Source of the DNA: Brachybacterium squillarum M-6-3 | GTDB lineage: Bacteria; Actinomycetota; Actinomycetes; Actinomycetales; Dermabacteraceae | DNA length: 64,000 nucleotides | Reading direction: 5' to 3' | Assembly (NCBI RefSeq): GCF_000225825.1 | Contig: NZ_AGBX01000001.1 | Location: 744,001-808,000 of the forward strand | The notes under the pieces: model-generated | Database searches by the model: none | What the model was told of the DNA's origin: nothing | What the model saw: the letters and a program-made list of their open reading frames with translations, nothing else | Program-made: the position numbers and the translations under genes | Shown: positions 32,576-35,462 of the stretch, one piece after another | Layout of the letters: the number at the start of each line of letters is the position of its first letter | Numbering within the stretch: position 1 is the stretch's first letter

Positions 32576-32934
32576 TCAGGCGATCGGCGGCACGTACAGC
32601 GCCTCGGGCTCCTCGGCGCCCTCGGGCACAGCGCTCAGCAGCATCACCGTGTCCTGGAGGGCGATCACCTCGCGACGCTGCGGCGGCACCTCATGGATCA
32701 CCCCGCTCTGCAGCACGAAGGGCTCCTCTCGGCGATCACCTTGATGGCGCCGTGCAGGATGTAGAGGCTCGCGTCGACCTCGGAGTGGTGCGGCGGCAGG
32801 GTGGTGTCCTCGAGCAGCACCACCACCGTCTGCTGGAGTCGACCGCCGAGGATCACGTGCTCCTCATGGCGGCGGTCCGCGGCGTTGCAGGCACGGTCGA
32901 TGGACCGCGAGACGATGTCGGACAGGGCGACCAT
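32576..32934 (-). pseudogene. cupin-domain protein with single frameshift
   Basis: Frame 1 from ATG 32934 reads VALSDIVSRSIDRACNAADR, then EDTTLPPHHSEVDASLYILHGAIKVI. After about 32725 the family sequence continues only in another frame as EEPFVLQSGVIHEVPPQRRE then ALQDTVMLLSAVPEGAEE, ending at TGA 32576. One lost base within GCCGAGAGGAGCCC would explain the break. The first frame would stop after a few unrelated residues (PSCCRAG). A sequencing error would look the same. Confidence 0.72.
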
Positions 32935-33208
32935 GATGCGCCCCTCGGGGACGAGGGGTCCCGGGGGTCGTCGTCGACGGCGCCGGTGCGCCGGGTCGCC
33001 GTCGAACATGCCCGGGCGGATCCTTTGTGCACTGCTGTGGTCAGTCCAGGGGGACCCCGATCCCGCCCGCCCGGGTCCGACCGCTCGGACGCGGCTCGCC
33101 GCGCTGTGGTCCCGCTCCGGCGGGCCGACCGAACCGCCGACAATCGCCGCCGTCGGCAGGAGCATCACGTCCGACGTCCGTGTGCGGCGCTCGTGCCCCG
33201 ACCACGAG

Positions 33209-33244: not shown

Positions 33245-33256
33245 TCTGGACTCTTG

Positions 33257-33329
33257 TGGAGACTAGGGGGGTCGAACCCCTGACCTGAAGCTTGCAAAGC
33301 TACCGCTCTACCAACTGAGCTAAGTCCCC
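33257..33329 (-). tRNA. tRNA-Ala (UGC anticodon)
   Basis: 73-nt cloverleaf on the minus strand. The acceptor GGGGACU pairs with AGUCUCC, the D-arm GCUCAGUUGGUAGAGC is standard, the anticodon loop is UUUGCAA with UGC, and the T-arm contains GGUUCGACCCC. CCA is not encoded. Confidence 0.97.
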
Positions 33330-33546: not shown

Positions 33547-33571
33547 CACGAGAGTCCTCCACTCATCGAAG

Positions 33572-33645
33572 TGGGCCTAACTGGACTTGAACCAGTGACC
33601 TCTGTCTTATCAGGACAGCGCTCTAACCGACTGAGCTATAGGCCC
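33572..33645 (-). tRNA. tRNA-Ile (GAU anticodon)
   Basis: 74-nt minus-strand cloverleaf. The acceptor GGGCCUA pairs with UAGGCCC, the D-arm is GCUCAGUCGGUUAGAGC, the anticodon loop CUGAUAA carries GAU, and the T-arm has GGUUCAAGUCC. CCA is not encoded. First gene of the leftward tRNA unit. Confidence 0.97.
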
Positions 33646-33671
33646 GGGGGCGCTGCACCGGATCGTACCGG

Positions 33672-33814
33672 TGCCTGCTACCGACGCACCACTGTACGTG
33701 CGCCGCGGGCCGCCGTCCAACCGATGAGGGGTGCTGTACGGCAGGTCACAGGGGGATCCGGCGGCCGTCCACAATTGTCTACCGAACCCCGGCGGTCGAT
33801 GCCTGCTACCGACG
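33672..33814 (+). repeat. exact 15-bp direct repeat flanking the tRNA/sigma promoter region
   Basis: TGCCTGCTACCGACG occurs at 33672-33686 and again at 33800-33814, 128 bp apart. The first copy is next to the tRNA-Ile promoter and the second is 70 bp upstream of the broken sigma-factor gene. Could be a shared regulatory site or a short duplication. Confidence 0.7.
33691..33720 (-). promoter_or_regulatory. promoter of the tRNA-Ile/DLW-39/tRNA-Ala unit
   Basis: Read leftwards, TTGGAC (33715-33720) and TACAGT (33691-33696) with an 18-bp spacer form a housekeeping-type promoter about 46 bp upstream of tRNA-Ile. Confidence 0.6.
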
Positions 33815-33884: not shown

Positions 33885-34301
33885 ATGTCCACCGTCACGC
33901 CCGCGAGCATTGGCGGCTCCCCGCCCAGTCCGTCCGAAAGCCTGCCGCCCGCGGTCCCGGCGTCTCCCCCGCGCCCCCCGCCGCCCCGCTGGAGCAGGTC
34001 GCCGACGGCGACGAGCTGGCCTTCGCCGAGCTCGCCGGACAGAGACGAGGGCGAGTACCAGCTCGGTGACCGCGTGGTCGGCGTGCAGGAGGAGGGCAAC
34101 CGCCGGGTCGAGTCCGAGCGGGTCACCCACGCCCTGACCTTTCTCAGCGACCCCCAGCGCGAGGCGATCGAGCTGGCCTCTGTCGGCGGGTACACCCAGC
34201 GGGAAGTGGCGGATCTTCTGGATATCCCCCTCGGAGCCGCCAAGACCCGCATCCGGGAGGGCATGATCGTCCTGCGGGACAGGCTGGGGGTGGGCTCATG
34301 A
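33885..34301 (+). pseudogene. ECF sigma factor (SigK-like) lacking region 2
   Basis: The C-terminal 65 codons encode an intact sigma region 4: SERVTHALTFLSDPQREAIE, then LASVGGYTQREVADLLDIPL and GAAKTRIREGMIVLRDRLGV. The family N terminus PLEQVADGDELAFAELA is present but in a different frame (about 33988-34040). The roughly 100 residues of region 2, which bind core polymerase and the -10 element, are missing at the junction near 34040-34055. The continuous ORF from ATG 33885 encodes Pro/Ser-rich nonsense before region 4. It overlaps the start of an intact RskA-type anti-sigma gene by 4 bp, the normal sigK-rskA arrangement. Internal deletion plus frameshift is the simplest explanation. Confidence 0.8.
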
Positions 34302-34942
34302 CGGCGTACGGACAGGATCATTCGGAGGACCAGGCGACGCGCGCGCTGCTCGCCGCCTGGGCCCTGGACGCCCTGGACGAGGGCGAACGCGCCCGGGTCG
34401 AGGAGCTGATGGCGCGGGACGAGCGCGCCGCCGCGGAGGCCGCCTCCTTCCTGGCGACGATGGCGGCGGTGGACGAGGGCCTGGAGCAGCTGCCGCCCCG
34501 TCCGGAACTGCGCGAGACCGTGCTGCGGCGGGTGGCGGCGACCCCGCAGGGCCGGGCGCCCGCGGACGCTCCGTCGTCGCCGTCCGCACCCCGGGGAACG
34601 GATCCCGCACCGCACGGGGAGCCGTCGGCCCGGGAACAGGGCGAGGTCGTGCCCCTGTCCCGCTATCGCTCCAACGTGCGGCGCGGCCGTTGGCTGGGGC
34701 TGGCCGCCGCGACCCTGCTGATCACCACGGTCGCCTCCTTCGGGCTGTGGCGCGGCGAGCGCGCGGCGGACGACGTGGAGCTGGCCGAGATCGAGACCCC
34801 GCAGAGCGACTCCGCACCCGCCGAGGGCTCGGTGACGGTGCAGGACGATCTCGCCGGCTCCGTGCAGATCGGGGTGACGGTGGAGCCGAGCACCGGCTCG
34901 CAGGAGCCCACCTCCGACCCGATCGCCGCCGCCGAGCTCTGA
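34298..34942 (+). CDS. rskA: RskA-type anti-sigma factor
   Basis: A 214-residue membrane protein. The N-terminal anti-sigma domain (residues 10-75) has LLAAWALDALDEGERARVEE and a paired helix LRETVLRRVA. A linker rich in Pro/Ser/Glu leads to PLSRYRSNVRRGRW and one membrane helix LGLAAATLLITTVASFGLW (about 128-147), with a short extracytoplasmic tail. Members hold SigK-type sigma factors at the membrane until proteolysis. Here the adjacent sigma gene is broken, so the protein may be orphaned or control another sigma factor. ATG 34298 overlaps the sigma stop codon. Confidence 0.82.
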   Translation: MTAYGQDHSEDQATRALLAAWALDALDEGERARVEELMARDERAAAEAASFLATMAAVDEGLEQLPPRPELRETVLRRVAATPQGRAPADAPSSPSAPRGTDPAPHGEPSAREQGEVVPLSRYRSNVRRGRWLGLAAATLLITTVASFGLWRGERAADDVELAEIETPQSDSAPAEGSVTVQDDLAGSVQIGVTVEPSTGSQEPTSDPIAAAEL

Positions 34943-34982: not shown

Positions 34983-35462
34983 ATGAGCGAGGAGCGTGCC
35001 CGCGCGGCCCTGGAGGCCTCCGGGCTGGAGCACGCGATCACCCGGCACGGGCGCGTGTCCTCCCTCGCCGAGGCCGCGGCCGCCCGCGGCGTGGAGCCCC
35101 GAGACATCGTGAAGACGCTGGTGGTGCGCCGCGGCGAGGACGACTTCCTGTTCGTGCTGGTGCCCGGGGACCGGGAGATCTCCTGGCCGCTGCTGCGGGC
35201 CGAGCTCGGAGTCAACCGCCTCTCGATGCCTGACGCGGAGGTCGCCCGCGAGGTCACCGGCTACGAGCGCGGCACCATCACGCCCTTCGGCGCCACGACA
35301 GCCTGGCCCGTCGTCGCCGACGCCACCCTGACAGGCGACCCCGAGCGGCGGATCTCCCTGGGCGCCGGCGCCCACGGCGTCGCCGCGACCGTGCCGGCCG
35401 AGGCCGCCCTCGAACACCTGGGCGCCCTCATCGCTCCCGTCACCGCCCCCTTGGATCCCTGA
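34983..35462 (+). CDS. YbaK/EbsC-family aminoacyl-tRNA deacylase
   Basis: A 159-residue YbaK/ProX-fold protein: ALEASGLEHAITRHG near the N terminus, then DIVKTLVVRRGEDDFLFVLVPG with the lysine typical of the active-site pocket, and EVTGYERGTITPFGATTAWPVVAD. It likely hydrolyses mischarged tRNA (Cys- or Ala-tRNA-Pro type) in the cytosol. Stand-alone gene with ATG 34983 after GGTGGAG. Confidence 0.87.
   Translation: MSEERARAALEASGLEHAITRHGRVSSLAEAAAARGVEPRDIVKTLVVRRGEDDFLFVLVPGDREISWPLLRAELGVNRLSMPDAEVAREVTGYERGTITPFGATTAWPVVADATLTGDPERRISLGAGAHGVAATVPAEAALEHLGALIAPVTAPLDP

Follow-up and report, generated by a model that had tools for sequence, protein, structure and literature searches.

The window analysed here is a stretch of 64,000 nucleotides from the genome of Brachybacterium squillarum M-6-3 (C8:744001-808000 in an assembly of 3.19 Mb on 8 contigs, rated 99.99% complete). 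Inside a 1.37-Mb contig, the window carries the remnant of a sigK gene for a sigma factor and an rskA-like anti-sigma factor gene, which overlap by ATGA and are flanked by two tRNA genes on one side and a ybaK-like gene on the other (Table 1). An 18-nt direct repeat is also present between the tRNA-Ile gene and the sigK remnant; its second copy is possibly a rearrangement scar at the place where a fasciclin gene is missing.

Table 1. Features of the sigK-rskA locus, in positions of the window
Feature	Position	Strand	Basis and remarks
tRNA-Ala	33256..33329	-	ARAGORN; left border of the ancestral site, same neighbour in relatives
tRNA-Ile	33571..33645	-	ARAGORN, synteny in relatives; also marks the left border
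Position of the lost SigK-type promoter	33761..33787	+	CCGAAC kept, upstream element absent; 8/12 matches, chance level
18-nt direct repeat, second copy	33797..33814	+	First copy at 33669-33686, 17/18 alike
sigK remnant	33885..34301	+	138-codon open frame starting at the homologous ATG; lacks region 2, retains region 4
Scrap of sigma region 2.1, 18 residues	33986..34039	+	In the +1 frame
Junction of the region-2 deletion	34032..34044	+	~212 bp missing relative to the intact copy
Sigma-70 region 4 (PF08281)	34116..34262	+	Pfam profile match
rskA-like anti-sigma gene	34298..34942	+	214 codons; lacks most of the sensor domain
Predicted four-helix cytoplasmic anti-sigma domain, residues 8-81	34319..34540	+	AlphaFold2 model, pLDDT mostly 72-88
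Transmembrane segment, residues ~129-155	34682..34762	+	Alignment; within helix 120-166 of the AlphaFold2 model
Junction of the RskA_C loss, in frame, ~76 residues	34824..34829	+	Alignment
ybaK-like gene (PF04073)	34983..35462	+	Right border of the site

In the sigK remnant, the native ATG (33885, whose surroundings match those of the start codons of the homologues), the N-terminal tail and region 4 belong to one open frame, and only the scrap of region 2.1 is out of frame; given that this ATG is in frame with region 4, we infer that the deletion is offset by another frame change, located in the proline-rich leader. The alignment with homologues places all of the Pfam region 2 within the deleted segment, and a whole-genome profile search with PF04542 (region 2) yielded no match at the window locus. 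Region 4, in contrast to region 2, is recognized by PF08281 (34.9 bits, cut-off 25.7) and is the best-kept part of the locus: 4 of the 42 sites that are invariant in 15 functional homologues are broken when four positions of the junction stretch are set aside, and over the whole aligned stretch 8 of 46 invariant sites are changed, four of them in that non-homologous junction stretch. The same comparison gives 3 changes at 49 invariant sites for a second, intact copy of the gene found elsewhere in the genome (see below). With the model for the whole SigK protein (NF007228/PRK09646), the remnant scores 70.3 against a cut-off of 226, which the intact copy passes with 230.5. A sigma peptide without region 2 neither binds core RNA polymerase nor melts the -10 element. 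Given the absence of region 2, the window locus encodes no sigma factor, and the pair would no longer drive a regulon.

When the rskA-like product is aligned with its intact counterpart and those of 13 relatives, the in-frame loss falls between residues 176 and 177, where the extracytoplasmic RskA_C sensor domain has been removed almost entirely, together with its conserved YQLW core; the membrane helix and the last 38 residues remain. The PF10099 (RskA_C) profile gives 20.4 bits (cut-off 29.4), over profile positions 89-135 of 135 only, versus 74.3 bits for the intact copy, and the NCBIfam anti-sigma equivalog NF052375 gives 79.3 versus 145.4, with a cut-off of 100. The AlphaFold2 models of the window and intact proteins (mean pLDDT 67 and 68) both contain the cytoplasmic and membrane helices, the cytoplasmic ones being predicted in the window RskA at residues 8-24, 28-40, 42-61 and 69-81. 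An eight-strand domain with pLDDT near 90 is present only in the intact model, compared with two short, low-confidence strands in the window model. A single transmembrane helix is predicted from the hydrophobic stretch conserved in the alignment and from the modelled helix. A Foldseek search of the window model against the PDB produced no meaningful match, so that assignment to the anti-sigma fold is based on the model and on homology with the intact copy; a PDB sequence search with the same protein returned two chance-like matches only. In the sigma-binding part, the window RskA keeps 21 of the 37 residues in columns with at least 85% conservation, versus 30 of 37 in the intact copy.

To place the locus in the context of the genus, a synteny map of 35 stretches (3 of them from the source genome) was used. 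In 12 relatives, the genes for tRNA-Ala, tRNA-Ile, SigK, RskA, a molybdopterin oxidoreductase and YbaK follow each other in this order on one contig, with gyrA next to ybaK, and the cassette at this site is usually headed by a fasciclin gene; three further genomes (G019, G027 and G032) possess sigK-rskA-oxidoreductase in a setting partly hidden by contig ends or rearrangement. The fasciclin gene, which the intact copy and most relatives possess, has no tblastn match in the window, and the gap between rskA and ybaK, which in the relatives holds the oxidoreductase and more, measures only 40 bp. Partial remains are found at the same site in three other genomes, namely the oxidoreductase only, without sigK-rskA, in G020 (L124), a part of the fasciclin gene close to a part of the oxidoreductase gene, again without sigK-rskA, in G026 (L126), and the fasciclin gene, part of rskA and the oxidoreductase in G028. 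The G028 locus (L043, 5399-8300, flipped strand), where the end of the fasciclin gene joins the middle of rskA and sigK is gone, represents a different broken state. In ten stretches with ybaK, no match to sigK, rskA or the oxidoreductase was detected. Given this synteny, the window locus occupies the ancestral place of the cassette, and loss of the sigma/anti-sigma dyad recurs in the genus. A scan of named genomes with the window anti-sigma protein as the query found nothing; a scan with ybaK returned 80 loci, 10 of them with any match to the cassette and none similar to the window remnant; and in an order-wide search of 396 genomes the closest relative was still the intact copy of the same genome (48% identity).

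The promoter has been lost along with the fasciclin gene. Upstream of the fasciclin gene, a site of the form CMATCC-like/N15/CCGAAC-like was found in each of the 13 relatives examined, as well as in the intact copy, with variants such as N16 in G019, CGATCC in G024 and CCGAAT in G026. At the window site, CCGAAC is kept and the other element is absent, the best score being equal to 8/12 compared with a mean of 7.7 for shuffled sequences, and neither a SigK-type nor a sigma-70 consensus promoter was found there. The source genome contains three exact CMATCC-N15-CCGAAY sites (0 in the control), none of them at the window locus: one precedes the intact fasciclin gene, one (at 909800) lies inside the intact cassette between the oxidoreductase gene and the CHRD-like and sortase genes, and the third (C8:1108818-1108844, minus strand; L281) is located away from both cassettes.

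The original prediction, which held that sigma region 4 persists, that region 2 is deleted and that an RskA-type gene overlaps the sigma gene, agrees with these results. Its placement of the sigma parts in different frames applies to the region 2.1 scrap and not to the start, the tail and region 4; the anti-sigma gene, which was thought to be free of lesions, shows the kind of inactivating change that the prediction had named as its refutation, in the sensor domain and not in the sigma-binding domain; and the damage extends beyond the dyad, to the fasciclin gene, the promoter and the oxidoreductase.

The complete gene set is found about 129 kb from the window locus, at C8:905.7-911.4 kb, in the order fasciclin - sigK - rskA - oxidoreductase - CHRD-like - sortase, where CHRD-like is a putative name that we assign from the translation rather than from a database match. 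The sigma factor encoded there matches Mycobacterium tuberculosis SigK (4nqw) with an E value of 1.5e-39, and the oxidoreductase is recognized by PF00174 (163 bits). The presence of two such SigK copies in one genome is unique to the source genome among 38 of the genus. In the source genome, the intact cassette lies between a gene that we take to encode a permease and a presumably FUSC-like gene, which are 5958 bp apart. In 26 of the 29 other genomes with both genes on one contig these are divergent neighbours less than 600 bp apart, the exceptions being G018 (879 bp), G007 (2152 bp) and G012 (6880 bp); given that the flanking genes are adjacent in most relatives, the intact cassette has been inserted between them. 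The sortase encoded next to it (L037, 8711-9439; C8:910710-911438) has as its most similar counterparts (58-61%) the sortases of genomes with a second, distant sigK cassette, and because of this likeness the intact cassette looks as if it were composite.

An assembly or sequencing artefact, with an intact pair misread, is hardly credible. Single-base errors are possible in this region, given that the adjacent cupin-like gene (a putative assignment from the translation; 32580-32935, minus strand) is split by an apparent single frameshift near 32727, but the losses in the window locus comprise blocks of about 212 and 228 bp as well as whole genes, the locus is embedded in a long contig of a nearly complete genome, and the intact copy occupies a separate place and is merely 48-62% identical. 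The split cupin-like gene itself, for which no homologue was found among the fetched loci except those of its own genome, is either another gene that was inactivated recently or the product of a base error.

Region 4 is 62% identical between the two copies, and RskA 48%. In trees with outgroups, the window copy falls outside the group formed by the remaining Brachybacterium SigK, to which the intact copy belongs (94.5/95; 97.4/99). In unrooted trees without outgroups the two copies group weakly (38/76), a grouping that is not reproduced with outgroups. A recent duplication of the intact copy within the genome can be dismissed, the sister-copy tree being rejected (AU p = 0.020); an alternative that nests the window copy within the genus and places G019 outside it is not rejected (AU p = 0.067). 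The source genome is placed near G020 in the gyrA tree (84/89), and the intact copy is placed near G020 in the oxidoreductase tree (77/72, weak). Synteny would make the window copy the resident one, but in the tree it is the intact copy that lies closer to the expected place of the source genome; either copy may be the native one, and the intact cassette may have either moved or been acquired. The second, distant sigK-rskA cassette of Brachybacterium (G005, G011, G013, G020 and G034) is likewise a SigK-RskA pair with a nearby sortase gene, but its SigK is 45-49% identical, it forms a separate lineage in the trees and it is not located at the tRNA-Ile/ybaK site.

The codon analysis bears on when the decay took place. 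In branch profiles computed with a codon model, omega on the window branch is at most about 0.1 for region 4, the lower of the two, and 0.1-0.3 for rskA, with synonymous sites near saturation and on a tree without outgroups in which the two copies are adjacent (about 8 of the 92 sigma codons precede the deletion junction). Fixing omega at 1 on this branch costs 14.2 log-likelihood units for region 4 and 12.1 for rskA, so that neutral decay since the split of the copies is rejected; when the synonymous time of the intact copy is imposed on the window branch, omega becomes approximately 0.4 for region 4 and 0.33 for rskA. The GC3 values, 0.89 and 0.94, are similar to those of functional homologues. 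Open reading frames are weak proof of function: in neutral simulations with 0.3 changes per site, 32% and 16% of the runs retain a stop-free frame. Given the rejection of omega = 1, the pair coded for working proteins during most of its separate history. Accordingly, either (i) the lesions are late or (ii) the remaining domains have been kept in use, and a single genome cannot separate these options.

One version of continued use would make the region 4 peptide the product that matters, as a DNA-binding or anti-sigma-titrating peptide that sequesters the intact RskA and raises SigK activity. Region 4 is the best-preserved part of the locus with the lowest omega, and PMC7406223, in the part available, describes a leucine in sigma region 4 that contacts RskA. 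However, according to the same part of that source, class I anti-sigma domains hold sigma 2 and sigma 4 in a clamp, and this peptide has no sigma 2; furthermore, the gene for the peptide precedes that for its own RskA, which would compete, and the arrangement is seen in one genome only. Altogether, this role for the peptide is very unlikely.

The gene order fasciclin - sigK - rskA is shared with the mpt83/mpt70 cassette of Mycobacterium and Yersinia, as described in the available part of PMC7509140, and the similarity extends to the match between the intact SigK and M. tuberculosis SigK and to the SigK-type promoter before the fasciclin gene. Unlike that cassette, Brachybacterium possesses a molybdopterin oxidoreductase gene after rskA, and the window site lacks the fasciclin gene, the promoter, region 2 and most of RskA_C. 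The same portion of PMC7509140 reports that RskA 1-81 or 1-86 alone suffices to inhibit SigK, that certain RskA variants are dominant over the wild type, and that the RskA remnant of Nocardia (about 81 residues), often annotated as a pseudogene, still inhibits. The window RskA resembles the Nocardia protein in being cut towards the N-terminal domain, in the loss of the mpt83-type gene and in its pseudogene look, but in Nocardia a full-length sigK stands beside the truncated rskA (PMC7509140, available part), whereas in the window sigK is broken too and the intact SigK is encoded elsewhere, and the window RskA retains the membrane helix and the last 38 residues. For M. tuberculosis RskA, that part of the source gives the form lacking only 194-232 as SigK-activating and larger truncations as not activating. 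The available part of the paper on Leifsonia anti-sigma K (PMC6323826) is not informative on broken pairs.

These precedents bring up the possibility that the sensor-less, membrane-anchored RskA acts in trans, with the intact SigK of the same genome, which lies beyond the sequence on which the original prediction was made, as the obvious partner for any cross-regulation. Given the loss of most of the extracytoplasmic domain, the window RskA, if active, would more likely be inhibitory; it would thus inhibit the intact SigK constitutively, activation being less likely, and the region 4 peptide would be a by-product or a partial decoy. The predicted four-helix domain and membrane helix, the preserved frames and translational overlap, the omega well under 1 and the intact SigK with a similar region 4 are all compatible with such a role. 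Nevertheless, we regard it as unlikely, because the sigma-binding part is more eroded than that of the intact copy, no promoter was found at the site, the arrangement is seen in one genome only, and the window RskA and the intact SigK belong to different lineages, which makes the pairing uncertain. It appears quite unlikely that the dyad lost its sigma factor and kept the sensor-less RskA as a constitutive trans-acting brake or modulator on its replacement, a SigK of another lineage, which would make the former pair a stand-alone regulator.

In our opinion, the window locus is probably a redundant, recently broken relic of a SigK-type cassette. Given that the complete gene set is present elsewhere in the chromosome, the window pair is most likely an ordinary leftover. 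The open frames, native start, ATGA coupling, omega below 1 and few broken invariant sites are traits that a still-used peptide would show, but the relic reading is preferred because the promoter is lost and the sigma-binding part of the anti-sigma protein is more eroded than that of the intact copy. The site holds what remains of a fasciclin - sigK - rskA - molybdopterin oxidoreductase cassette in its usual place in the genus, from which separate deletions took the fasciclin gene together with the SigK promoter, region 2 of the sigma factor, most of the sensor domain of RskA and the oxidoreductase. The complete SigK cassette inserted 129 kb away would have rendered the window copy redundant; the pair, presumably unable to drive its regulon, would be on the way to being lost, like the dyad in several sister genomes, and the codon analysis suggests that the loss is recent relative to the divergence of the window copy. 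The original prediction thus stands in part: recent decay, one of the possibilities it raised, fits the rejection of neutrality and the still recognizable out-of-frame scrap of region 2.1, whereas the supposedly intact anti-sigma factor turned out to be damaged.

The locus shows displacement of a sigma/anti-sigma cassette, with a complete cassette at a new site and piecewise erosion of the copy at the old one. If the leftover RskA is inactive, this erosion is ordinary gene decay; if it remains active, regulators would be hidden among the sensor-less anti-sigma genes that are automatically called 'pseudogenes', as has been reported for Nocardia.
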